From Prasinococcaceae sp. CCMP 1430 (Eukaryota; Prasinodermophyta; Palmophyllophyceae; Prasinococcales; Prasinococcaceae), in NCBI GenBank assembly GCA_013416795.1, contig RQSC01000663.1, forward strand, positions 28,004-48,724: 20,721 nt of DNA. Reading direction: 5' to 3'. The notes under the pieces are model-generated. The model saw only the letters and a program-made list of their open reading frames with translations. It was not told the DNA's origin and made no database searches. Position 1 is the first letter of the stretch; every line of letters begins with the position of its first letter. Both the position numbers and the translations under genes were made by a program. This document shows, piece after piece, positions 3 through 20,524 of this stretch.

Positions 3-2219
3 GCGGCGGGCGCCAAGGCTGCGAGCGTGCGCGCGGCTGCGCCAGCGGCCGCAGCCGCGGCCAGCGTCGTCAAGCGCGGTAGGAGCAACGAGGGCCGTGA
101 GCTGCGCGCGCTCGGCAGGGCCGTGCGTGCACAGGCAGCCAAGGTCTCCAAGGCGAGGACCGGCGCCGCGGCCGCCGGCGCCGACCCGCTGCTGCAGGAG
201 AGCGTCGAGCAGCTCAAGGAGCGCTTCCGCGCCACGTTGGGCAGGGATGCGTCCTCAAGCAATAAGGGCTGGCTTGTCATGAAGATCCGGTTGGAAGAGA
301 AGAAGGCCGACAAGGAGAAGGCCGCCGCGTCGCCCTCGCCGGCGAAGGCTGGGCGCTCGCCCGCAGCGCGATCGTCGCCGCCGCAGCGGCAGCAGCAGCA
401 GCGTTCACCAGCGGCTGCGCGGTCACCCACGCACAACCGCGCATCAGCCGGACGGAAGCGCGGGGCGTGCAGCCAGGCAGACGCCGGGGCTTCCGCACGC
501 GCGCGCAAGAGACTCAACCTCGGCAGCGCGGACGGCATCGCGGGGCGCGATGAGGTAGAAAGCGAGGGCGACGAGGCCTCCGACGAGCAGCTCGAGGATG
601 CACGGGCGGACGACGACGGCAGCGGAGGGAGGGACGCCGATGTGGGCGACGACGACTTCTTCAACCGCGATGCGTGTGCAGATGCGAGCCCGGGCGCGGG
701 CGCGGGTACGAGTGGCTATGTCGCAGCGCCTGTGGCGCCCACCGCAGTCGCGCGGCCGGCGGTCAACGGCGACGCGATCCGCGCGGCGATGCGCGCGGCG
801 ATGGGGCGTTCGATGGGAGGCGGCCTGACCATCGCGGCCGCCGCGCCCGCGGAGCCGAACGAGAGTGCTGGCAGGGGCGTGGACGCAAGCGCGATGGAAA
901 GGGGCACCGGCACGGCGTGTGCACCTGGCACCGACGAAGCCGAACAGGAGGAGGAGGAGGAGGAGGGTGGGAATGGCCGCGCGTACATCGAAGCCACGCG
1001 CAAGCAGGGCGCGTCCGGCAGCACGGCCAAGGGAAGCAAGGGCGCCAAGGGCGCCAAGGGCGCCGCGCGCACCAAGACGAACAACCGCGCCGCGAGCGCC
1101 CCACTGAATGAGTCGTTGCTGGCGGACGACGCGGCGGTGGCAGCAGCGCTCGCGACGCTTCCCGACAAGCACGCGGCCGCGCGCGCAGAGCTTTTCGAGG
1201 TGTACGAGCACGAGTCGGCGCAATGGGCACTGCGGCTGCGCGCAGGGAGCTCGCTGCTCTTCCACGGTTTCGGCTCCAAGCGCAAGCTTCTGGATGAGTT
1301 CGTCGCGCGCTCGTGCTCTGACGGCAGCGTGCTGGAAGTCGACGGCTTCGAGCAGGCGCTCACGGCGCGTGACGTGCTGCGCGCGGCCGCCACGATCGCG
1401 CGCGAGCACGCGGCGGCGGTGGCCAACGCCAACGCCGCCACGGGCTCGGCTGTAGACGCCGAGGGCGTGGCCGTGGGCGCGGCGATTAGTGGGATGTCCA
1501 ATGCGGAGCTCTGCGCGGTGGTGCGCGCCGCCATGCATCTGCCGGGAGTCGATCCGCGCGCCGAGGAGAGCGGGTCCTCGGTGCCCATGCCTCCCCTGTA
1601 CCTGGTGGTGCACTCGATCGACGGCCCCAGCCTGCGGAGCGCCGAGGCGCAAGCGCAGTTGGCCGAACTTGCCGCATGCACGCACGTGCGCGTGGTGGCC
1701 AGTGTCGACCACCTGAATGCCGCGCTGCTGTGGGATCGCGAGGCGCTCGGGCGCTTTCGCTGGAGCTGGATCGAGGCGCCCACGTGGGCTCCATATACCT
1801 CCGAGGCGCGCAGCTTCGCGCCGCTGGTGGCGCCCCGCGCCGAGGGTCGCCGCGCGCAGGGTGCACTGCAGGTGCTGCAGTCGCTCACGCCCAACGCGCG
1901 GGGCATCTTCCGCATGCTCATCGACCGCTGCAACGCGCAGGCCCAGGCGGCCGCAGCGGCAGGCGGCCGCGGCGGCGGCGCCATTGGCATCAGCTTCCAC
2001 GCGCTCTACGAGGCCTGCCGCGAGCGCTTCCTGTGCTCGAGCCAGGCCACGCTCAAGAGTGTGCTCACCGAGTTCGCCGACCACGAGCTGGTGCGCGAAC
2101 GGCGCACAGCAGGCACGGGCGAGCGCACCGGGGGCGAGCGCGGCGGCGGTGACCTCATCCAGGTGGCGTTGCCCAAGGCGGCGCTCAGCTCGGTGCTTGA
2201 GGCCATGGACGCTGCCTGA
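3..2219 (+). CDS. ORC2: Origin recognition complex subunit 2, 5'-partial
   Basis: ORC2 is a core subunit of the six-part complex that marks replication origins in the nucleus and helps load the MCM helicase. The conserved region spans roughly residues 390-725, counting from base 27. It shows GFGSKRKLLDEF (415-426), VVASVDHLNAALLWD (556-570), WAPYTSEA (587-594), SLTPNARGIFRMLI (619-632) and GISFHALYEACRERF (654-668), all ORC2 hallmarks covering the AAA+-like and winged-helix parts. The first 360 residues are low-complexity: Ala/Lys-rich, five Ser-Pro sites, an acidic stretch, poly-Glu and KGAKGAKGA repeats. The frame is open to the left edge with no ATG (base 27 is GTG), so the true start lies outside the window. 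No intron is needed. It ends in TGA, 30 bases before an AATAAA signal, and converges on the glycosyltransferase gene. Identity is near certain. Confidence 0.96.
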   Translation, partial: AAGAKAASVRAAAPAAAAAASVVKRGRSNEGRELRALGRAVRAQAAKVSKARTGAAAAGADPLLQESVEQLKERFRATLGRDASSSNKGWLVMKIRLEEKKADKEKAAASPSPAKAGRSPAARSSPPQRQQQQRSPAAARSPTHNRASAGRKRGACSQADAGASARARKRLNLGSADGIAGRDEVESEGDEASDEQLEDARADDDGSGGRDADVGDDDFFNRDACADASPGAGAGTSGYVAAPVAPTAVARPAVNGDAIRAAMRAAMGRSMGGGLTIAAAAPAEPNESAGRGVDASAMERGTGTACAPGTDEAEQEEEEEEGGNGRAYIEATRKQGASGSTAKGSKGAKGAKGAARTKTNNRAASAPLNESLLADDAAVAAALATLPDKHAAARAELFEVYEHESAQWALRLRAGSSLLFHGFGSKRKLLDEFVARSCSDGSVLEVDGFEQALTARDVLRAAATIAREHAAAVANANAATGSAVDAEGVAVGAAISGMSNAELCAVVRAAMHLPGVDPRAEESGSSVPMPPLYLVVHSIDGPSLRSAEAQAQLAELAACTHVRVVASVDHLNAALLWDREALGRFRWSWIEAPTWAPYTSEARSFAPLVAPRAEGRRAQGALQVLQSLTPNARGIFRMLIDRCNAQAQAAAAAGGRGGGAIGISFHALYEACRERFLCSSQATLKSVLTEFADHELVRERRTAGTGERTGGERGGGDLIQVALPKAALSSVLEAMDAA

Positions 2220-8426: not shown

Positions 8427-11400
8427 TCACACGGCGAGAAGCTCTCGCTGCCACCGCGACGTCTTTGGTGCCACGGTGGCACGGGCGGCTGCAGAGGCTG
8501 CGAAGCCATCGCCTCTCAGAGCCGCCACATAGCTCGCAGAGCTCATGCCCACGGCCACGAGCCTCGCGCGATGCAGAACACCAGCCGCACCGGTGGCAGC
8601 GTTTGCGTCTGCAGCTGCATTCGCGTTTGGCACTCCGCCCCCGCCAGCACCAACCACCCCCGCCGCTCCAGCTCCACCCCCACCCCCGGCGGCAGCTTGG
8701 CCTGCCACAGGCGCACCCGCGGCGCCAAGCAAGCCCGCGTTGTTGAGCGCGTAACTCAAAGAGACCATGCCACGCACGCCCACAAAGACGCCCCCGAGCT
8801 GCTCGCCGAGCCACGTGCCGTCCACGCGCGTGGCGCACGCGCTCAGATATGCACCCACGGCGCGCACTTGGTCCTGGTACGCAACGCCAGCGTTTGCCGA
8901 GTCCGCAGCGGGCACTAGAGTGCCCCAATCTGACCCAGCGGCCATCTTGTTGGTCGCCACTGCCAGCCTCGACGCTTCATTGTACAGCGGAGGAGGCCTC
9001 ATCGGCCGAATCCCAATGTTCGGAAGGATCGACGCCGTGGCGGCGAGGACGGCGTTTGACATTGCCATAAGCTCATCGGCATCGCCCAAACCTTCAGCTC
9101 CAGCCTGCGCGTCGGGGACTGGCCCTTGCGCCAGCTGTGGGTGGTTTGCACAGGCGCGCGAGATCGCAGCAATGGACTTGGCGAACGTGCAGTTGTGAAA
9201 CTTGAAGCGCACGGGCTCCGGCATGCCGCCGAGAGTGCGCTGGACCTCGCCGCTCGCCATGAAATCGAAGGCAGCCGTGTCCAGAGCCAAGCTATGCGGG
9301 TGGGGGACGTGCACGCCCTCGACGGGGCAGCCTCGCAGCGCGTTGACGACAAACGGCAGCAACGGGGACAGCAGCGGCACGGAGCGGTCGAGCGCGGGTG
9401 ATGCCTCCTGCGCCGCCGCGAGGCACACCCGCACGAACTGGAAGACCGCGCAAGCAGCCTGGGCCGCACACAGCTTGGCGTTCGCACCAACAACGGCGCG
9501 CTTGTACCAGGCCACCGTCGCACAGCCAGCAACGAACTGCAGCATATCAGGAGGAACTCCCGACGAGGCCAACGCCCGCGCCAGAGCGCCCGCTTCGGCG
9601 CGTGCGCGCCCTGCGGCCTCGGATCCCGCATCAGAGCTGGCCAACGCGACGAGGACGGCGTCGACCACGCCCACAACGAAGCGAAGGAGGCCTGCGCTTC
9701 CCTTCCATCCGTCGAGCCCCGCCACGGTGGTAAGGGCGCTTGAAACGTCAGCCTGCACCATGCAGGCGAGGTCGTTCGCAAGTGTTGATTGGATGAGCCG
9801 CACCAGTGCAGCGTGCAGCATGCCACGCATTGACAGCGCCTTGTCGAGCAGGGGCACCAGCACGCTCGCACCGCTCGCCGCGTCCCCATCACCAGAGTGC
9901 AGCGGCGCCCCGAGCTCAGCAGCCGCAGCCGCGATGACGCCGAGCGACACCGTCGCATACACGGCACCGTCCTGCAGTTGCAGCGAGGATTTCGCCAGCG
10001 CCTTGCCGCCCGCCATGACCGCCGCGGGGACGCCCTGGAGCGCCCGCCGAGCGGCCGAGCGGCCTTGGTTGCCCATGAGCCTCGAGCGCTCGGCAACGCG
10101 CTTCAACACGGCAGCCGCAGACTCGCGCCTCCACGAGACGTCAGGAACACGCAGCGCGCGTGGGGCGGCCTGCCACGAGCTGCCACCGCCCTCGGCACCA
10201 ATGTCGGAGATCCCAGCGAAGAGTGCGCTCGTTGGGGGCGTGCGGGAGAGGACCGCGGCTAGCTCGCGCTGGACGGTGACGAACGGATCCACGCATGCAG
10301 CGAGCCATGCCGCCGTGAGCTCCCAAGCAACGTCTGTGGGCACCGGCGGAGGCGCTGCCGTGCGCTCGACCGGCCCCACGTTGGCAGAGGCCTCCGCATC
10401 GTCAGCGCGGCGCCAGAGCACGGACAGCAACACCCGCATGGGCGCTTGCCGCGCTTCCCACAGACCCGGTTCTGCCCAGTGCGAGCGCGGCCCATACGCC
10501 GCGATGAAGTCCTTCCAATCGCGCAGGCCAGTGCGGATCATGAGCCACTCCAATGCCGCCACCGCTGCCGCCGTCGACTCCAGCCGATCGGCCGCTTGAC
10601 GGCGCGCGGCAGGGGAGGCGCCAGGCCGAGCAGCCTGGGCGGACGCGCTCGCGGCCAACCTGAAAGCCCGGTCGAGCGGGCCCGAGCAGTGCTCCTTCGC
10701 TGCCTTGGCCAGCTCGCGGCATGCCTGCAAGAAAGGGTGCAGCGACTCCACCAGGCCGGCGTAATATTCCTCCTTCATTGCCTTGTCACGCTCAGCGCGC
10801 CTGCAGGCCTGCTCCATCATTGCGTCCATATCGTTGGGATCTGCATCGGGCGATTCACCCTCGTGGTCGTATCCGCCGCCGCCGAGCAGAGCACTCTGTT
10901 GAGGCTCGGGAGCCGCCGGGGGCTGCGGCAAGGTGAGCGCAGCAGCAAGGGCACGCGCCGCCGCGGCGGAAACTTCGGGAGGTCGCGACACGCCCTCGCC
11001 GACGTGTGCAGGCGGCGACAGGAGCGACCCGAGGGCCGACGTCACGAAGAGCGCGCGCAGAGAGGCGCCCGCCGCTGCCGAGGCGCATGCTGCGGCGTAC
11101 GCAGCGGCGTCACGCGGCATCGACTCCGGAACGGGCGCCGTGCGCGGCAGAGCAGCCGCGATGGCGTTGAGCGCACCCTTGAGAGCACTAGCGGCCTCGG
11201 CAGCGTCGAGGGCAGCCTCACGCGCCTTGGTGCGGCGCCGAGATGCGATGACCCAAGCGGGTAGCTGGCCGTCGCCCGTGATCGTCTCGCCACCAGACGA
11301 AAGCGACCATCGCGCAACGGCGCCGTGCGCCGCTGTTTGAAAAGGGGTCGCTGCGAGCCCTCCCCCGGGCATGTCTGTGTCGCCCTTTGCGAGTGCGGCG

Positions 11401-12617
11401 TGTGCATCGTGCTCGTGCGTCAGCTTGTCCAGGGCCTTGTTGATCTGACCGGACACAGCCTTCGCTGCTCCCATCGACGCGTTGACGTCCGTCTGCGTGC
11501 GCGAGAGAACGGCAGAGGTGCCGACGATGCGAGCCAGTGCTAGCAGTCCACTAAGCAAGACCTCGCGCCCGCCGCGATCAGCGTGCTCGAATGGCACAAG
11601 GTTGATCATGCAGTGCATCACCGTGTTCCACTGCGCAGCGGGCAAGCTCGCGGCAAGGACCGCGCAGAGCTGCACGCTGTGGCGCAACTCTGCGAGCGAT
11701 CCCACCCGCGCCCCGCGCCCGTGCCCGCCTGCTGACGGCGCACGGAGCATTTGCAAGAATCGAGACGACGCGCGAACCGACCTCTGCACGCCCGCACCAG
11801 GGGGCGCAATCGCTGACGACACCAGCTGAAGCGCACAGGCGCATGGTCTGAGGTTCGCCAGTCCTGACGGACCAGAACTTTGAGGGCAGCAGCGCAATGC
11901 TGACATCACGAAGTCTGGAACCCCTTCACAGCAGCTGCTGACGTCCGCGTCTTGCCCTCCGGCAGCACTGGCAGCGCGCTGGAGCTGCGACCAGGCGGTC
12001 ACTGCGACATTGACGGATCCGTTGCCCTTCCATAGGCGTGCCAGTCCAGCCACGCGCTTGAGCACCGCCGACGCGTAGCGTTCCCGAGCATGACCGAGTC
12101 TCACGAACGCGCCCATGCGCCCACCAGCCGCGCGCATGCCCTCAAATGCAGGATTCTGAAACGCGGGCGATGTCTCGAGCAGGCGCTGCACCAGCGGCCA
12201 GCAGTGTCGCTGGACCGAGCCGTTTGTGCGTCCGTCGCTACATCTGACATCCGCGAGCGCGTGGTACAGGGGCGCGATGTACATGCACGAGGCCCACGCG
12301 CGCTCAGCAACAAGAGCTTTGTCCTCGGGCGTCGTGACCACATCGAGCGACGCGAATGCAGCCGCCTGCACAGTTTGCCAGAAGCCAGCCCCTCCAGCGG
12401 CGTCCGAGACAGCAATGGCGCTCGCAATTTTCGACACGAGCTCGCGCGACTTTTCGCTGTAGTCGTACGAGCGCCAGACGAGGTCGACCGACGTGTCGAT
12501 GTCCGCGATGGCATGCTGCACGCACTCGGCAGCCTCCTCAGCGGACTGCCCACTGGGCTCCACGACTGGTATTCGGCCCGAAAACAGGTCTTTTGCAATC
12601 GCAAAGTACGATTCCAT
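8427..12617 (-). other. Helical C-terminal region of the chromatin protein, possible MMS22-like module
   Basis: This part begins at an internal Met (residue 1673, MESYFAIAKDLFSGR) and is rich in Ala, Leu and Val with amphipathic helices, unlike the disordered linker before it. A segment with DTSVDLVWRSYD, FWQTVQAAAF, ERAWASC and VAVTAWSQLQRA follows the order of landmarks I associate with the MMS22/Mus7 family. That family acts at stalled forks with a Rtt107 or TONSL partner. The match is by eye, and any long HEAT-like helical protein could produce part of it. Confidence 0.3.
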
Positions 12618-15600
12618 GTCGGTCGGCAGGGGGCGTGGCAAGACCGCAACCCCCGCTTGGATGGAACGGGAACGATTGGAGGCGTCTGGATTTTGCGTCC
12701 GCGCTGCAATCGCCTCAGTCGTGCTGCCAGGGATTACCGAGGGTTGCTGGCCGATGCCACGGCCAAAGTCGCCATGCCAGGCGCTGTTGTCACCGTCGCC
12801 CCCCAAATCGTCACCGAAGCCGCCGTCGTCCCAGTCGATATCCTCGATGGCGTCGCTCGCTGTCTGCGCACCGGTAACGAGGTCATCACTGTCGTCACTG
12901 GCATCGCTCTCCGTATCAGCCAGAGCATCATCGTGGGTACGTTTTGCTTTCTGCGCCCAAGGGCGCCTGCATTTGCACCGCGTGCACATGCACGTGTTTT
13001 TGTGCGGTCGGGGCGCCTTCCTGCGACTCCTGGAGGACGCAGGGGCCGCCGCCCACCCCCTGGCTGGCGTGAGCGGCGCAGAACCTTCTCCCAGTCGTCG
13101 AGTCCTGCCCAGAGCCAGTCGCCGCGATCGCGGTGCACCCCCCAGGCCAAAAGAGGCACTGCGAGTCGAGCCTTCGTCGCCCGAGTCGACACCCGCTCCC
13201 CTATCTGCGAGTCGCAACAGGATGCGGCCGAGACGGGCCGACTGCTGTTGGGGCGTGCGCACGACACGCGGCCGGCGCTGTAGTCGAGGTGCCGTGCCTG
13301 GTGTGCGCAGTCGAATTGCACCTTGGCGCGCGAGTCCGACAACTCTCTCACCCTGCGGCGTCGCCGAGGCGGACGGCGTGCCCGTATGCACTCTCATCTG
13401 CCCGTGCTCACGCGAAGCACCAGCACCGATGTTTCCCGACATTTCGCCACTAGCCGCTACACGATGATTGATGCCTGCGCGCGTGGGTGGCCGAAGAATC
13501 CTCGCTGGGGACTCGTCGTCGTCGTCGCTCGAGTCGATGAGCTGGACGCGCCGTGGGCCAGTCGAAGGCTGCCGCGCGGATGACCCGGCGCCTCCGTCCC
13601 GCACTTTCTCAGGGCCACCGATTGCTGGCGTGCGCATCGCTGGACTCGTCGCATGCCTGCGTCCCCGTACTTGCTGCCCAATCGGCTGCAAGACCGTCCG
13701 TGCGTGCGCACGCGATGGGCCAGGTGTCTGCTGCGAGGAGTCGGACGCCACGTTGCGCGCCGGTGCCCGTTGTGACTTCGAAGCACTGCCACTGCCGCCA
13801 TCTCCGATGCGCGGCGCGGCGCGCGCATTGTGCTCAGTGGGCTCGGCACGAGGTCGCACGATTGCGGCGCCTGCGCGCGGCGGCTGGGGGAGCTCAACCT
13901 CAACATTCTGCGCATTGGCTCGGCGGCGGATGTACTTCCAAACCTTGGCCGCGTTCCACGTCTGTCCGTTCGCGTCGCTCGCCTCCAGCTTGGTACGCAG
14001 CGCCACCAGCTGGGCTTGTAAATGGTCTGCAACGCTTCGGTAGCCGCGCTTTGTCGCATTGTAAATCTGCAGACCGAGTGGTTTCATGCCGCGACGGCGC
14101 ATGCAGAACGAGCAGTTGCACAACCAGAAGTCGTCGGGGTGCTCCTCCTCGTAGCAGGTAGGGCAAACCCAGTCGGCCGCACGGGCCTCGCGCAGGCTCA
14201 AGCCGAAGCGCACAACCAAGCAGCGCGAGCAGAAAGTGCCAAGCGCGCTCGAGCACCTGGAGCAGTTGCTGTGGCCGACGCACTCAGCGTTGGCATTGCC
14301 GCCCTCACAGCGGGGGCACCCCGGCTCCCCGCACGTCATTTTCTGTCGACAGAAGTGGCACGTCGTCCCGAGGATGGGATCTAGCACACCTTGCCTCACG
14401 GTCGAGCGGTCAGCTTCTCCAGCCCGAGGCGCGATGTATCTGCCGCGGGCCACGTCCACCTCTGTATCAATGTCGAAGCCGAGAGCGCCAGCTCCAGACG
14501 ACCCTCCAGCAGCAGCGTGCAGCAACTGCTGCTGCTGCTGCTGGCGTCGCTGTTGCCTCGTGTCCTCTCGCCCCTGTCGCTCTTGCTGACGCGCTTGGCG
14601 GCGCAAGTCACGGCGGCGCTTCTGCTCTCGTTGCTGGCCCTCGGTGAGCAATGGGCCGTCCTCGAACTGCAGCACAGGCTTGGCAAAACGCCGCGCCGCC
14701 CCCTCATTGCCTCGAGCAGCTGCGTGTCTCATCGAGCGTCGAAAGACCGCGAGAAAGTCGGGGACTCGAGCACGGCCATTCGACCTGCGCGGCACGGCAC
14801 GAGCGTAGGCGCGCATGCTCTGCCGGAGGATGGTGAGGGCCGCAGCCGGGCCATAGTCGATGTCCTCGACTTCGTACCAAGGCTCAGCATCGAGAGCCGT
14901 TCCTACCGGCAAGCGTGATGTCAATGCGAGTGCGGCCGCAGGTGACGCCATCGTCGCCGTAGGAGAGGGCGGCCGGGCGCGGGGTGCCGGCGGCCGTCGA
15001 GGCGGCGGGATCGCTTGCTTGGTTCTCTGCTTTTTCTGCGGCGGGGCCAGTGATAGGCGCGCCTGTTCGGCCTGCGGCTGTGCTCGACCGGGATCCCGCT
15101 GCGCACCTGCACGATTTTGCCTGACCAGCTGCGCGAGCGACATGCCTTCCTCGTCAGTGCTGCTTTCGTCGTTCTCCACGTCAGGCCTCCACGCTTCCTC
15201 TTCGTCCTGTGTCTCCGTTTCGATCCGCCGCTGCTTCTCTCTGTCTCGCACGAGCTGCGGCGCGTGTTCTTTGCATCGTGCGAGGTACTCATCGCGAAGG
15301 AGCACCCCGCCGCTCCTCTCGACGCACATGAGGTGAAACGACTTCGGGCATGCCTCGCACGAGCATCCCAAAGCGGCACCGCGCTTCTTGCAGTGCGCGC
15401 ACTCAAGCTCCATAGCACGCTGTATTTCTGCTCGCAACCCGACCAGCCGCCCGTCCTTCCAGTACGCTTGGGGGCACCACTCGGCGCAGTCCTCGTGCAC
15501 GTGCTTGCCTCCATGATTCAGCAGCGGGCGCTCGCGCGTGCCGTGGCCCATGCACAGCACGCACGTAGGTTCCACGCTGCGACCACCACTGGTCACTTTC

Positions 15601-17633
15601 TCCGACCCCACCCCCGCGCGTTGGTGAGGCGACGCAGACACATCCTGCGTCGGCAGCGTGCGCTCTTGCGGGGCTGCAGGAGCTCGGCGCAGCGCAAAGA
15701 GCGGTGCGGCATCGTCTTCACTGCTGCTATCGTCAAGGCCAGCACCGGTGGACGTCTCTCGTGCAGGTGATGTCGTTTTGGGCGGGAGGACCGGATGCGG
15801 CGGCACGTTCTGCTCCTCCCCGGCCGTGTTGGCAGCTTGTGGTTCGCGAGAGCGCTGCACATCCTGCTCATTGCCATTGCTGCCCTCGTCGCCAAGGCCC
15901 GCCTGCAAAGACTGCTGCTGCGCAGCAGCGGCGGCGGCGACGAGCCGCCGCTGCTGCGGCGCGGCCGATGGCGTGCTCTTTGGCCCACGCGGCCTCTGAG
16001 CGAGCGGCACGTCATCGTCCTCGCTCGAGTCCTCTTGCAGTCCGACCGCCGCACACCGCTTCTTGAAAGCGCGTCGGGGCGGCGTCCGTCGCGGCGGCTG
16101 CGAAGCCGGTAGAGGGGCCGGCGGCTGCAGAGGCCATGCCAAGAGCTCTTGGTCCACACCGCCGCTGCCGTCGTCCGGCTCAACAGACGCAGGGTCATCC
16201 GCACCACCGGCGTCCTCCGCCTCTCGGCGCTCTCGCATCTCTTGCTCCCTCACGCGCGGCAAAGCGTGCTGCTCGCACCGCGCCGTAAACCTTTGCTTCT
16301 GCAGCAGGCCACCGCTCGCTTCGACGCACATGAGGTGGAAGGACGCCGGGCAGCCCTTGCGCGAGCAGCCCAGCGCCGCGCCAGGCTTCTGGCAGTACGC
16401 GCAGCCAAGCTTCTTCGCACGAGCGACCGACTTGGCCACGTTGACCAGCTGGTCGTCCTCGTTCAGGTACGCCTCGGGGCACCACTCCGCGCAGTCGGCA
16501 TGGAGGCGCTTTCCCTCGAACTCCCCCAGGGGCCGCTCGCTCGTGCCCTTTTCCAGGCACAGCTCGCACGTCGGCGCCTCTTTGACCCGGTGGCGGGAGC
16601 AGCGCGCGGTGAAGGTGTCCTTGTCGAGCATGCCACCGCTCGGCTCCACGCACTTGAGATGGAACGTCCTGCCGCAGCCCTTCCGCAGGCACTTGAGCGG
16701 CGCGCCGGTCGTGTTGCAGTGCGCGCACCGGAGCTTTGAGGCGCGCTTGACAGCCCTGGCCACGTTGACGAGCTGGTCGTCCTCATTCAGGTACGCCTCA
16801 GGGCACCACTCGGCGCAGTCTTCGTGCACGCGTACGCCCTCGACCACGACGATCGGCCTCGCTTTGGTGGCTCGGGCGCCGCACAGCTCGCAGGTGTCCT
16901 CAGCAGGCAGCGGCGATGCCCTGCGCGCCGCCGCAGCCGAGCGCCGCTGCGCCGAAGCTGGCGCCGACGCGAGCGCTGGCACCGCCGCCGCCACGCCGGC
17001 CCTGGCCGCAGCCGTGCCTGCCGGCAATGCCGCCTCAGCCGACGGAGACCCCGGCGGGGAGGCGTCCGTTCCCTCCATGCTGGCCTCCGTCGTGGCCTCG
17101 CTCCCGGTGCACGTCGGCGGCTGCTGTAGCTCCTCCTGCTGCTGCCGCTCCCGGGCCTCCCGTGGGTCCCGCGGTTGCTGCATGCTCTGCTGCTCGAGCT
17201 GCCCTGGACGCTCAAGCACATCCACAGCCTCGAGCGGGGGCTGTCGGTCTGTATCGCCATGCTGCTGCTCGTCGCGGCCGTCCTCGCTCGTGCGGGGTAG
17301 TCGCGGCCTTTTCCCCCCCGCCTCGACAGCTGCCTCGCCGCGGCGCGCAGCGCGGTGCGCGCCGCTGCCTCGCCGCCGCCGCCGCTTGCGTGTGCCGCCG
17401 CCACCCCCTTCCTCGCCGTCGGACGGCTCGCTGCAGCTGTCGGGCACCGTCCCCACGTCGTCCTCGCCGCCTCGCGGCGCCCCCACGCCCCCCCCCTGCG
17501 CCAGACGCAGCAGGACGCAGACTGCAGCTGACCCCGCCGCCGCCACGCGCGCGCGCGCGCGCGCCGCGCGCGCGCTCTGGCAGCGCCTCTGCCGAAAATT
17601 CGCGCGCTTTCGCGCGCGTTCGAGCCGCGCCAT
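8427..17633 (-). CDS. Giant chromatin protein: three ePHD fingers, CDCA7-type zf-4CXXC_R1 finger, MMS22-like helical C-terminus (tentative)
   Basis: One stop-free frame of 3068 residues runs from ATG 17633 to TGA. A basic, acidic and Gln-rich N-terminus is followed by ePHD1 (244-349), ePHD2 (352-457) and ePHD3 (688-791). Each has the C-x2-C, H-x2-C-x2-W, C-x2-C, FHLxC and C-x2-H ligands of the extended PHD (C2HC pre-PHD plus PHD) fold that reads histone tails. Residues 1087-1208 form a zf-4CXXC_R1 finger (CHFCRQKM, CSRCLVVRFG, WVCPTC, CNCSFCMRRRG) as in CDCA7, a DNA-methylation maintenance factor that recognises hemimethylated DNA. A poly-Gln tract (1027-1036), a VQLIDSSDDDDE phospho-SIM-like motif (1363-1374) and a CxCxxCxC knuckle (1548-1555) follow. 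Residues ~1673-3068 are Ala-rich and probably helical. Short stretches (DLVWRSYD, AWSQLQRA) recall MMS22/Mus7, which is weak evidence. Introns or two same-frame genes are not excluded. The location is expected to be nuclear. Confidence 0.8.
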   Translation of the reverse strand: MARLERARKRANFRQRRCQSARAARARARVAAAGSAAVCVLLRLAQGGGVGAPRGGEDDVGTVPDSCSEPSDGEEGGGGGTRKRRRRRGSGAHRAARRGEAAVEAGGKRPRLPRTSEDGRDEQQHGDTDRQPPLEAVDVLERPGQLEQQSMQQPRDPREARERQQQEELQQPPTCTGSEATTEASMEGTDASPPGSPSAEAALPAGTAAARAGVAAAVPALASAPASAQRRSAAAARRASPLPAEDTCELCGARATKARPIVVVEGVRVHEDCAEWCPEAYLNEDDQLVNVARAVKRASKLRCAHCNTTGAPLKCLRKGCGRTFHLKCVEPSGGMLDKDTFTARCSRHRVKEAPTCELCLEKGTSERPLGEFEGKRLHADCAEWCPEAYLNEDDQLVNVAKSVARAKKLGCAYCQKPGAALGCSRKGCPASFHLMCVEASGGLLQKQRFTARCEQHALPRVREQEMRERREAEDAGGADDPASVEPDDGSGGVDQELLAWPLQPPAPLPASQPPRRTPPRRAFKKRCAAVGLQEDSSEDDDVPLAQRPRGPKSTPSAAPQQRRLVAAAAAAQQQSLQAGLGDEGSNGNEQDVQRSREPQAANTAGEEQNVPPHPVLPPKTTSPARETSTGAGLDDSSSEDDAAPLFALRRAPAAPQERTLPTQDVSASPHQRAGVGSEKVTSGGRSVEPTCVLCMGHGTRERPLLNHGGKHVHEDCAEWCPQAYWKDGRLVGLRAEIQRAMELECAHCKKRGAALGCSCEACPKSFHLMCVERSGGVLLRDEYLARCKEHAPQLVRDREKQRRIETETQDEEEAWRPDVENDESSTDEEGMSLAQLVRQNRAGAQRDPGRAQPQAEQARLSLAPPQKKQRTKQAIPPPRRPPAPRARPPSPTATMASPAAALALTSRLPVGTALDAEPWYEVEDIDYGPAAALTILRQSMRAYARAVPRRSNGRARVPDFLAVFRRSMRHAAARGNEGAARRFAKPVLQFEDGPLLTEGQQREQKRRRDLRRQARQQERQGREDTRQQRRQQQQQQLLHAAAGGSSGAGALGFDIDTEVDVARGRYIAPRAGEADRSTVRQGVLDPILGTTCHFCRQKMTCGEPGCPRCEGGNANAECVGHSNCSRCSSALGTFCSRCLVVRFGLSLREARAADWVCPTCYEEEHPDDFWLCNCSFCMRRRGMKPLGLQIYNATKRGYRSVADHLQAQLVALRTKLEASDANGQTWNAAKVWKYIRRRANAQNVEVELPQPPRAGAAIVRPRAEPTEHNARAAPRIGDGGSGSASKSQRAPARNVASDSSQQTPGPSRAHARTVLQPIGQQVRGRRHATSPAMRTPAIGGPEKVRDGGAGSSARQPSTGPRRVQLIDSSDDDDESPARILRPPTRAGINHRVAASGEMSGNIGAGASREHGQMRVHTGTPSASATPQGERVVGLARQGAIRLRTPGTAPRLQRRPRVVRTPQQQSARLGRILLRLADRGAGVDSGDEGSTRSASFGLGGAPRSRRLALGRTRRLGEGSAPLTPARGWAAAPASSRSRRKAPRPHKNTCMCTRCKCRRPWAQKAKRTHDDALADTESDASDDSDDLVTGAQTASDAIEDIDWDDGGFGDDLGGDGDNSAWHGDFGRGIGQQPSVIPGSTTEAIAARTQNPDASNRSRSIQAGVAVLPRPLPTDMESYFAIAKDLFSGRIPVVEPSGQSAEEAAECVQHAIADIDTSVDLVWRSYDYSEKSRELVSKIASAIAVSDAAGGAGFWQTVQAAAFASLDVVTTPEDKALVAERAWASCMYIAPLYHALADVRCSDGRTNGSVQRHCWPLVQRLLETSPAFQNPAFEGMRAAGGRMGAFVRLGHARERYASAVLKRVAGLARLWKGNGSVNVAVTAWSQLQRAASAAGGQDADVSSCCEGVPDFVMSALRCCPQSSGPSGLANLRPCACALQLVSSAIAPPGAGVQRSVRASSRFLQMLRAPSAGGHGRGARVGSLAELRHSVQLCAVLAASLPAAQWNTVMHCMINLVPFEHADRGGREVLLSGLLALARIVGTSAVLSRTQTDVNASMGAAKAVSGQINKALDKLTHEHDAHAALAKGDTDMPGGGLAATPFQTAAHGAVARWSLSSGGETITGDGQLPAWVIASRRRTKAREAALDAAEAASALKGALNAIAAALPRTAPVPESMPRDAAAYAAACASAAAGASLRALFVTSALGSLLSPPAHVGEGVSRPPEVSAAAARALAAALTLPQPPAAPEPQQSALLGGGGYDHEGESPDADPNDMDAMMEQACRRAERDKAMKEEYYAGLVESLHPFLQACRELAKAAKEHCSGPLDRAFRLAASASAQAARPGASPAARRQAADRLESTAAAVAALEWLMIRTGLRDWKDFIAAYGPRSHWAEPGLWEARQAPMRVLLSVLWRRADDAEASANVGPVERTAAPPPVPTDVAWELTAAWLAACVDPFVTVQRELAAVLSRTPPTSALFAGISDIGAEGGGSSWQAAPRALRVPDVSWRRESAAAVLKRVAERSRLMGNQGRSAARRALQGVPAAVMAGGKALAKSSLQLQDGAVYATVSLGVIAAAAAELGAPLHSGDGDAASGASVLVPLLDKALSMRGMLHAALVRLIQSTLANDLACMVQADVSSALTTVAGLDGWKGSAGLLRFVVGVVDAVLVALASSDAGSEAAGRARAEAGALARALASSGVPPDMLQFVAGCATVAWYKRAVVGANAKLCAAQAACAVFQFVRVCLAAAQEASPALDRSVPLLSPLLPFVVNALRGCPVEGVHVPHPHSLALDTAAFDFMASGEVQRTLGGMPEPVRFKFHNCTFAKSIAAISRACANHPQLAQGPVPDAQAGAEGLGDADELMAMSNAVLAATASILPNIGIRPMRPPPLYNEASRLAVATNKMAAGSDWGTLVPAADSANAGVAYQDQVRAVGAYLSACATRVDGTWLGEQLGGVFVGVRGMVSLSYALNNAGLLGAAGAPVAGQAAAGGGGGAGAAGVVGAGGGGVPNANAAADANAATGAAGVLHRARLVAVGMSSASYVAALRGDGFAASAAARATVAPKTSRWQRELLAV
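14010..14375 (-). other. CDCA7-type zf-4CXXC_R1 domain
   Basis: About fourteen Cys in CxxC or CxC pairs match the zf-4CXXC_R1 pattern of CDCA7/CDCA7L and some plant chromatin proteins. CDCA7 positions mutated in ICF syndrome appear to be kept: Arg in CRQK, Gly in the VRFG equivalent of RYGE, and Arg in the following LSLREA. The finger has two extra features relative to CDCA7: a longer first Cys cluster and an insert (EEEHPDDFWL) between WVCPTC and CNCSFC. Confidence 0.8.
14520..14560 (-). repeat. CAG/CTG triplet tract encoding poly-Gln
   Basis: Successive CTG triplets on the plus strand encode a Gln run (residues 1027-1036) in the charged Gln/Arg-rich helix just before the zf-4CXXC_R1 finger. 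The tract may be length-variable between strains. Confidence 0.6.
16263..16904 (-). repeat. Tandemly duplicated ePHD domains 1 and 2
   Basis: ePHD1 (16587-16904) and ePHD2 (16263-16580) follow each other with only two residues between them. They share the identical stretch DCAEWCPEAYLNEDDQLVNV. The matching DNA, near 16758-16818 and 16437-16497, is also nearly identical. The third ePHD (15261-15572) is more diverged. This indicates recent duplication or homogenisation within the gene. Confidence 0.8.
17545..17575. repeat. Alternating CG tract with Z-DNA potential
   Basis: (CG)9 at 17546-17563 and (CG)5 at 17565-17574, interrupted by one base, lie within the first codons of the chromatin gene. 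They encode an RARAR-type basic segment (residues ~22-30). Pure CG alternation is the best Z-DNA-forming sequence, and a position just after a start codon is where negative supercoiling is expected. Confidence 0.6.
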
Positions 17634-17839: not shown

Positions 17840-17842
17840 TGN

Positions 17843-19061: not shown

Positions 19062-20375
19062 TCATGAGTGAGCGGCGCTCACGAGCGTGATCTGCTCCGG
19101 CGGCGTGATAGCGCTCACGTTCTTGAATTTCTGCGACGCGTACTTCTCGCGGATGGCCACCAGGTTGCTCTTGGGCGAGTCCTTGTACAGGCGGTGCAGC
19201 GCCTCGATGCACGGCTCGAGCTCCTTGAGGCTATACCCGGTGTAGTGGGCGATGGTCGGGCTCCACGCAACGCGCTTGTTGGTGAAGTTGGCCAGGAAGA
19301 CGCACGCCGCCGCGATTTGGCTCGGGAGGAACTGCAGGAACTTGACGTCGACGAGGGTGAGCTCGCACAGGTAGTTCGCCAGCAGCTCGGTCTTGGGGTC
19401 GGCCTCCGAGCTCTTAATAAAGCGCCGCAGGAAGTGCTTGGGGGTGGGAGCGGTCAGCTCGAAGCCCAGCAGGTCCAGAATCTTGCGCTCCATCTGAATC
19501 ACCTCGTTGCGCGTGTATGTGTTGTCAGTGATGTACACGAACTCGTCGACCTGCGGCGCGTAAATCTCCTCGTACTTCGCAGCGACGAGCATGCACGACA
19601 CGCCCACGAGCTGCAGCCTGCTTCGCTGCACCTGGAACTTGGACAGCACGCGGTCGATGTAATTCACCGACAGGTACAGCGTGTCCGACACCAGCTTGTA
19701 CTCCTCAGCCACCTCCACCAGCCAGTCCACCAGGATGCTCCTCATCTGCGAGTTGATGTCCTGCTGCGTGCCGTCCTCCATGTACGCGGCAGACGGGCGC
19801 CGCGTCTGCTCCGTCTCGCGCAGATGTTTGTAGATCTCGGCGACGTACTTGGTGCAGTACTCCGGGTCGTTCACATGCGCACGGTCGATGTCCTTCACGT
19901 CATCGCCCTTCGGCGCCGGCTCTGCGCGTGCCGAGGCGCGGCGGCGAGTGCGGCGTGCGGATGCGCGTTTTCGCGGCGCGAGCGCGGACGGCGCGGACAG
20001 TTCAAATGTCAGCTGCCTGCAACAGCGAGGGCGCGAGGCAGCCGCGGCGACGCGGGGTGGGGAGGGGCCCGCACGAGAGCGGCAGGCACGCCACCGGCAC
20101 GGACGTGCCCCCTCGCGAGTGAACGGGACGCACGCGCGCCACGCGCGCGCGCGCCCGCTCCGCGGCCGCGACGAACGGGCAAGGGGCGCAGCTTTCGGGC
20201 GAGCACCGCACGTGCGGGGCGCGCGCGCGCACCTCCCGGTTCCCCCACGCGCTGCTGCTTGGCGCGCGTCGCCGCGCGCGTCACTGGGCCCTTCACCAGG
20301 CTCGCCTTTTGATCGAGGACGCGGGCGCGGGCGGGGGGGAGGGGGCACCGCGCGCAGGGGAAGGGAGGGCATCAT
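19062..20375 (-). CDS. A-type mitotic/S-phase cyclin
   Basis: This is the regulatory subunit of a cyclin-dependent kinase. The cyclin_N fold covers residues ~173-302, with MRSILVDWLVEVAEEYKL (211-228), including the MRAIL-like hydrophobic patch that docks RxL substrates. Next come LYLSVNYIDRVLS, LQLVGVSCMLVAAKYEEIYA (255-273) and the A-type YITDNTYTRNEVIQMER (281-297). Cyclin_C spans ~305-427 (FELTAPTPKHFLRRF, PTIAHYTGY). Order and wording fit cyclin A, plant-like, better than cyclin B. Numbering starts at ATG 20375. Residues 1-119 are an Arg/Pro/Ala-rich stretch without cyclin features and may be untranslated or intronic. A good 3' splice site (CTGTTGCAG|GCAG) sits at residue 120. No clear destruction box (RxxLxxxxN) is visible, but RKRASARRTRRR (135-146) is a likely nuclear signal. 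Cyclin identity is certain; the N-terminus is not. Confidence 0.9.
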   Translation of the reverse strand: MMPSLPLRAVPPPPRPRPRPRSKGEPGEGPSDARGDARQAAARGGTGRCARAPRTCGARPKAAPLARSSRPRSGRARAWRACVPFTREGARPCRWRACRSRAGPSPPRVAAAASRPRCCRQLTFELSAPSALAPRKRASARRTRRRASARAEPAPKGDDVKDIDRAHVNDPEYCTKYVAEIYKHLRETEQTRRPSAAYMEDGTQQDINSQMRSILVDWLVEVAEEYKLVSDTLYLSVNYIDRVLSKFQVQRSRLQLVGVSCMLVAAKYEEIYAPQVDEFVYITDNTYTRNEVIQMERKILDLLGFELTAPTPKHFLRRFIKSSEADPKTELLANYLCELTLVDVKFLQFLPSQIAAACVFLANFTNKRVAWSPTIAHYTGYSLKELEPCIEALHRLYKDSPKSNLVAIREKYASQKFKNVSAITPPEQITLVSAAHS

Positions 20376-20524
20376 TAAGCGGCGCTCGTGGTGTTGCGGC
20401 GGAGCAACACGCCGTCCGCGACGCGCGGCGGCGGCGCAGCGCCTGGGCCGGCACGGTTGCCAACCCTAAAGCGACTCCTCTTTCCCCCCCTTTTTCAATC
20501 TCGGGCGCCGCCAGCGCTCCGCAC

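Follow-up and report, generated by a model that had tools for sequence, protein, structure and literature searches.

A giant algal reading frame that probably encodes a CDCA7-type hemimethylation sensor with a tandem ePHD array

A stretch of algal DNA of 20,721 nucleotides (the window, to which coordinates refer unless a contig is named) contains a single, very long frame in which three ePHD modules, a CDCA7-type zinc finger, a disordered linker and a large, plausibly helical region follow one another. The encoded protein probably serves this alga as its CDCA7-type sensor of hemimethylated DNA, grown far larger through the addition of a tandem ePHD array and a helical scaffold of no assigned class, a reading to which we assign a probability of about 0.6. 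ICF syndrome type 3 traces to CDCA7, a hemimethylation sensor that works by recruiting HELLS. The predicted features are the following.

8427..17633, minus strand: giant open reading frame, from the ATG at 17633 to the stop at 8427; 3068 amino acids plus stop
16590..16895, minus strand: ePHD1, residues 247-348, with complete C2HC and C4HC2H ligands
16266..16571, minus strand: ePHD2, residues 355-456, a tandem duplicate with 65% identity to ePHD1
15264..15566, minus strand: ePHD3, residues 690-790, with 49-56% identity to ePHD1 and ePHD2
14013..14375, minus strand: zf-4CXXC_R1 (HMZF) finger with C-terminal helical extension, residues 1087-1207
12624..14012, minus strand: disordered linker, residues 1208-1670
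8679..12623, minus strand: helical region with no family assigned, residues 1671-2985 (about 1,300 residues)

The open reading frame

An earlier note on this DNA described one stop-free frame of 3068 codons without giving its strand. The frame lies on the minus strand, where it is open from stop to stop over 17714-8427, and the plus strand carries many stops at 8427-17633. From the base composition, about 70 stops would be expected over 3068 codons, and the probability of encountering none is about 1e-31. Codon usage agrees: in log-odds calculated over stretches of 120 codons with a model whose training set was genes of this genome with domain support, the giant frame is preferred in 23 of 25 stretches, the two others starting at codons 1415 and 1895. 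The coding signal is weakest at 13754-13034, within the disordered linker. The start codon is uncertain, with further in-frame ATGs near residues 151 and 186. The best reading is that the frame encodes one protein, and this is preferred over split genes.

The assembled sequence has no N inside the giant gene; the window has a single N, at 17842, upstream of it. An exact 886-bp copy of window 15728-16613 is found on another contig (C84:183057-183942; L015:3558-4443), where it begins at a single N (an N gap) and ends in unrelated sequence; in the window, the giant frame continues across both edges of the duplicated segment. The copy is probably assembly redundancy at the ePHD repeat; failing that, it would be a gene fragment of recent origin. 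The giant gene itself could contain an assembly error. The linker also harbors a cysteine cluster, CMCTRCKC, at residue 1548 (12969-12992, minus strand), which matches no family.

The zinc-finger modules

The CDCA7-type finger proposed in the earlier note is confirmed by the zf-4CXXC_R1 profile (PF10497), which exceeds its cut-off of 22.7 bits with a score of 74 (1.2e-20), and by the retention of every hemimethyl-CpG recognition residue that could be checked. In a six-frame search of the genome (24.5 Mb in 145 contigs), which intron-split genes can escape, the profile matches just this place. In the PDB, the finger comes closest to CDCA7 HMZF structures, with 39% identity over 107 aligned residues. 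R1096, G1132 and R1142 correspond to the ICF residues R274, G294 and R304 of the human protein, and Q1097 and S1175 match human Q275 and S330. These five residues have been named for recognition and folding, R274 and Q275 as those that discriminate hemimethylated CpG and S330 as a backbone contact (PMC11343034). Selective binding by CDCA7 requires the C-terminal helical extension of the HMZF, and HELLS recruitment requires an N-terminal helix (PMC11343034); the extension is also matched in the algal finger. The finger has 15 cysteines. Nine of the 11 CDCA7 signature cysteines align clearly; the other two, the third and fourth, are located in a stretch between the second and fifth where an insertion of four brings the cysteines to six, versus two in CDCA7. 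Despite this insertion, the finger can be placed in CDCA7 class I by the published criteria (PMC10538959), from which class II departs in lacking the ICF glycine and class III in lacking all ICF residues (PMC10538959). A search for relatives of the HMZF part in IMG/VR returned none.

The three ePHDs that had been noticed in the frame are equally clear, as three stretches exceed the Pfam cut-off for zf-HC5HC2H (8.5e-24), each with a full set of zinc ligands. Their mutual identity of 49-65% indicates that the array grew by duplication. ePHD1 finds its best PDB match in the ePHD of KMT2D, and a phmmer search of the PDB retrieved the ePHDs of KMT2D, JADE1, PHF7, PHF6 and BRPF1 as relatives, with E values of about 1e-3 to 1e-6. 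As a class, ePHDs have histones, DNA or other proteins as their ligands. The statement in the earlier note that ePHDs read histone tails is thus too strong. The ePHD model matches nine other places in the genome, not counting the C84 fragment. One predicted protein (contig C72, L014:3-6062) combines a GATA-type zinc finger, a glutamine-rich region and, C-terminal to both, three ePHDs, demonstrating that an ePHD triplet is not exclusive to the giant gene.

The helical C-terminal region

Residues 1671-2985 have no Pfam match and no paralogue in their own genome. A PDB sequence search with this part yielded nothing at E values up to 10, and no relatives were detected in IMG/VR or in bacterial and archaeal genomes. 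A match to B12D (E of about 0.01, below the cut-off for that family) falls in an alanine-rich stretch and was taken as chance. Two single-sequence AlphaFold models, which together cover both halves of the region (~1671-2985), are all helix with a pLDDT of 41-44. The large helical C-terminus that had been claimed is, therefore, plausible on these models as far as helical character goes, and the fold itself is not supported at this confidence. Foldseek searches with the models gave best E values of 0.59-1.3; given the poor quality of models built without an alignment, these matches are uninformative.

The region had been suggested to resemble MMS22 proteins. The profiles MMS22L_N, MMS22L_C and Mus7 (PF14910, PF14911, PF09462) have no match in the protein in what is a low-sensitivity test, nor in the genome in a search that lacked a working positive control. 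Human MMS22L and yeast Mms22, which served as comparators and were validated with Pfam (1252 and 476 bits for the former, 83 bits for the latter), gave no pairwise signal against the helical part. Human MMS22L and fungal Mus7 likewise fail to recognize each other pairwise, and since true members behave in this way, the tests are weak and the MMS22 link is to be regarded as unsupported rather than refuted. The proposed coupling to fork repair loses its support together with it.

Methylation partners in the genome

The genome encodes a predicted DDM1/HELLS remodeler (contig C75), which scores 632 bits with Arabidopsis DDM1 and 439 with ISWI, the next family, and which ranks Arabidopsis ahead of human. 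Together with the compact, GC-rich genome and the plant-like cyclin, this ranking points to a green picoalga. A DNMT5 gene (contig C69, L036:595-3657) unites methylase and SNF2 domains within a single frame of 2343 amino acids, and matches PDB 7r76, which we take to be the Cryptococcus DNMT5 structure, with E=3e-198. There are two chromodomain-methyltransferases (CMT-like); the one that was checked against the PDB is closest to 7ubu and 4fsx, presumably maize ZMET2. Three SRA proteins are found, one with a SET domain; this SRA and SET protein (contig C76, L022:3027-5468) resembles the plant SUVH histone methyltransferases. A further frame of 752 amino acids (contig C43, L032:226-2481) has a bacterial-type (HhaI-like) cytosine methyltransferase at its C-terminal end and a 425-residue N-terminal extension. 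A DNMT1 RFD model had no match in the genome, in a search without a working positive control.

A survey of 180 species found HELLS in all species with CDCA7 and DNMT1 in almost all of them; several of the DNMT1-less exceptions have DNMT5 (PMC10538959). The Mamiellophyceae also retain CDCA7 alongside DNMT5. Judged by gene content, the combination of DDM1, DNMT5, CMT-like and SRA genes is the usual eukaryotic setting of CDCA7. The giant gene is flanked by genes for ORC2 (3-2219, plus strand) and a plant-like cyclin (19062-20465, minus strand); both are cell-cycle genes, and nothing indicates more than chance in this arrangement.

Proposed function and alternative explanations

In the proposed mechanism, the HMZF finger would sense hemimethylated CpG, while the three ePHDs might hold the same or a neighboring nucleosome via histone tails, DNA or both. 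The giant protein would then recruit the DDM1/HELLS remodeler, and remodeling would open the site to the enzyme that maintains methylation, in this genome probably DNMT5, a CMT or both. The helical C-terminus may serve as a protein-binding scaffold. The earlier note had envisaged one polypeptide that couples the reading of newly replicated chromatin to methylation maintenance and fork repair; of this idea, the single frame, the ePHDs, the CDCA7 finger and the partner genes are supported, and the MMS22 and fork-repair part is not.

An unlikely possibility, though one to be taken seriously, is that this is a different chromatin protein that, like the DDR and JmjC proteins, has a borrowed zf-4CXXC_R1 finger, and that it plays no role in methylation maintenance. 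Other zf-4CXXC_R1 classes do occur in multidomain proteins (PMC10538959), the finger has its insertion, and the genome has another protein with three ePHDs. However, the ICF residues are all kept, in contrast to classes II and III, and the six-frame search turned up no further candidate for CDCA7, even though the genome has both DDM1 and DNMT5. It is less probable still that two genes or transcripts have been merged, one for the ePHDs and the HMZF, the other for the helical part with a start near the ATG at 12617. The coding signal is weak at 13034-13754, the linker contains in-frame ATGs, and with 14 stops per 10 frame-stretches in the other frames, chance alone would leave about 6% of such stretches open. 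Yet over 12400-14100 the gene frame has no stops, versus 4 and 17 in the other two minus frames, and the two halves share one frame, both with coding-like codon use. Splicing out of the frame before 12617, which the earlier note had named as evidence against a single protein, is not indicated either, as a search of the linker from 14283 to 12525 encountered no strong canonical splice donor.

A helical part that is MMS22-like, in a protein that couples hemimethylation sensing to fork rescue of the TONSL/RAD51 type, is very unlikely. Its size, all-helical character and position are as such a reading would have them, and a fungal Mus7 fragment, validated at 119.8 bits to PF09462, aligns best to residues 2373-2475 with its landmarks in order, at about 5-12 in 1000 versus shuffles (z of about 3). 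Against this, the fragment was composed after the query had been seen, an unrelated control rich in coiled coils outscored the query (57 versus 47), and phmmer ranked shuffles above the query. In a carrier (add-on) test with the Mus7 profile, which circumvents the HMMER speed filters, the query added +1.0 bit, within the range of shuffled and reversed controls (−1.7 to +3.0). The absence of Pfam MMS22 and Mus7 matches and of any likeness to human MMS22L points the same way, as does a review according to which plants have no MMS22L (PMC9409234). Hardly to be expected, finally, is a single chain that recognizes both hemimethylated CpG and nucleosomes in the wake of the fork and also recruits fork-rescue factors via an MMS22-type scaffold that escaped detection.

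Significance and comparison with known systems

If the giant protein is an enlarged CDCA7, a natural CDCA7 with a tandem ePHD array would demonstrate that one chain can combine the sensing of hemimethyl-CpG with the reading of nucleosomes, in a genome that pairs it with DNMT5, and would be a tractable natural fusion for asking which chromatin state CDCA7 needs to see. Were an MMS22-type scaffold present after all, methylation maintenance and recombination repair would share one reader in a plant-lineage organism, and the protein would fill the place of MMS22L, which plants are said to lack.

The earlier note knew of no described protein with this architecture, and our literature search for a CDCA7-PHD fusion found none. 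The survey of 180 species describes vertebrate and plant class I proteins as having no added domains, and PHD goes unmentioned in its main text (PMC10538959). Like the cysteine insertion in the finger, the lack of further annotated domains in known class I proteins counts against the CDCA7 reading. The giant protein shares with human and Arabidopsis CDCA7 an HMZF with equivalents of R274, Q275, G294, R304 and S330 and the C-terminal extension, and like CDCA7 it shares its genome with DDM1/HELLS and a maintenance methyltransferase. Unlike CDCA7, it has 3068 amino acids, three ePHDs, a helical tail, and 15 rather than 11 finger cysteines. DDR1-3 (class II, with DDT and WHIM1) and IBM1/JMJ24 (class III, with JmjC) are likewise multidomain zf-4CXXC_R1 proteins, but do not keep the three ICF residues that the giant protein retains; DDT, WHIM1 and JmjC had no match in the giant protein. 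MMS22L, Mms22 and Mus7 are also large helical proteins, a resemblance that goes without profile or pairwise support. With KMT2D, JADE1, PHF7, PHF6 and BRPF1, the giant protein has complete ePHD zinc ligands in common, but its ePHDs differ from theirs in forming a tandem triplet, and to our knowledge the HMZF finger is absent from all five.
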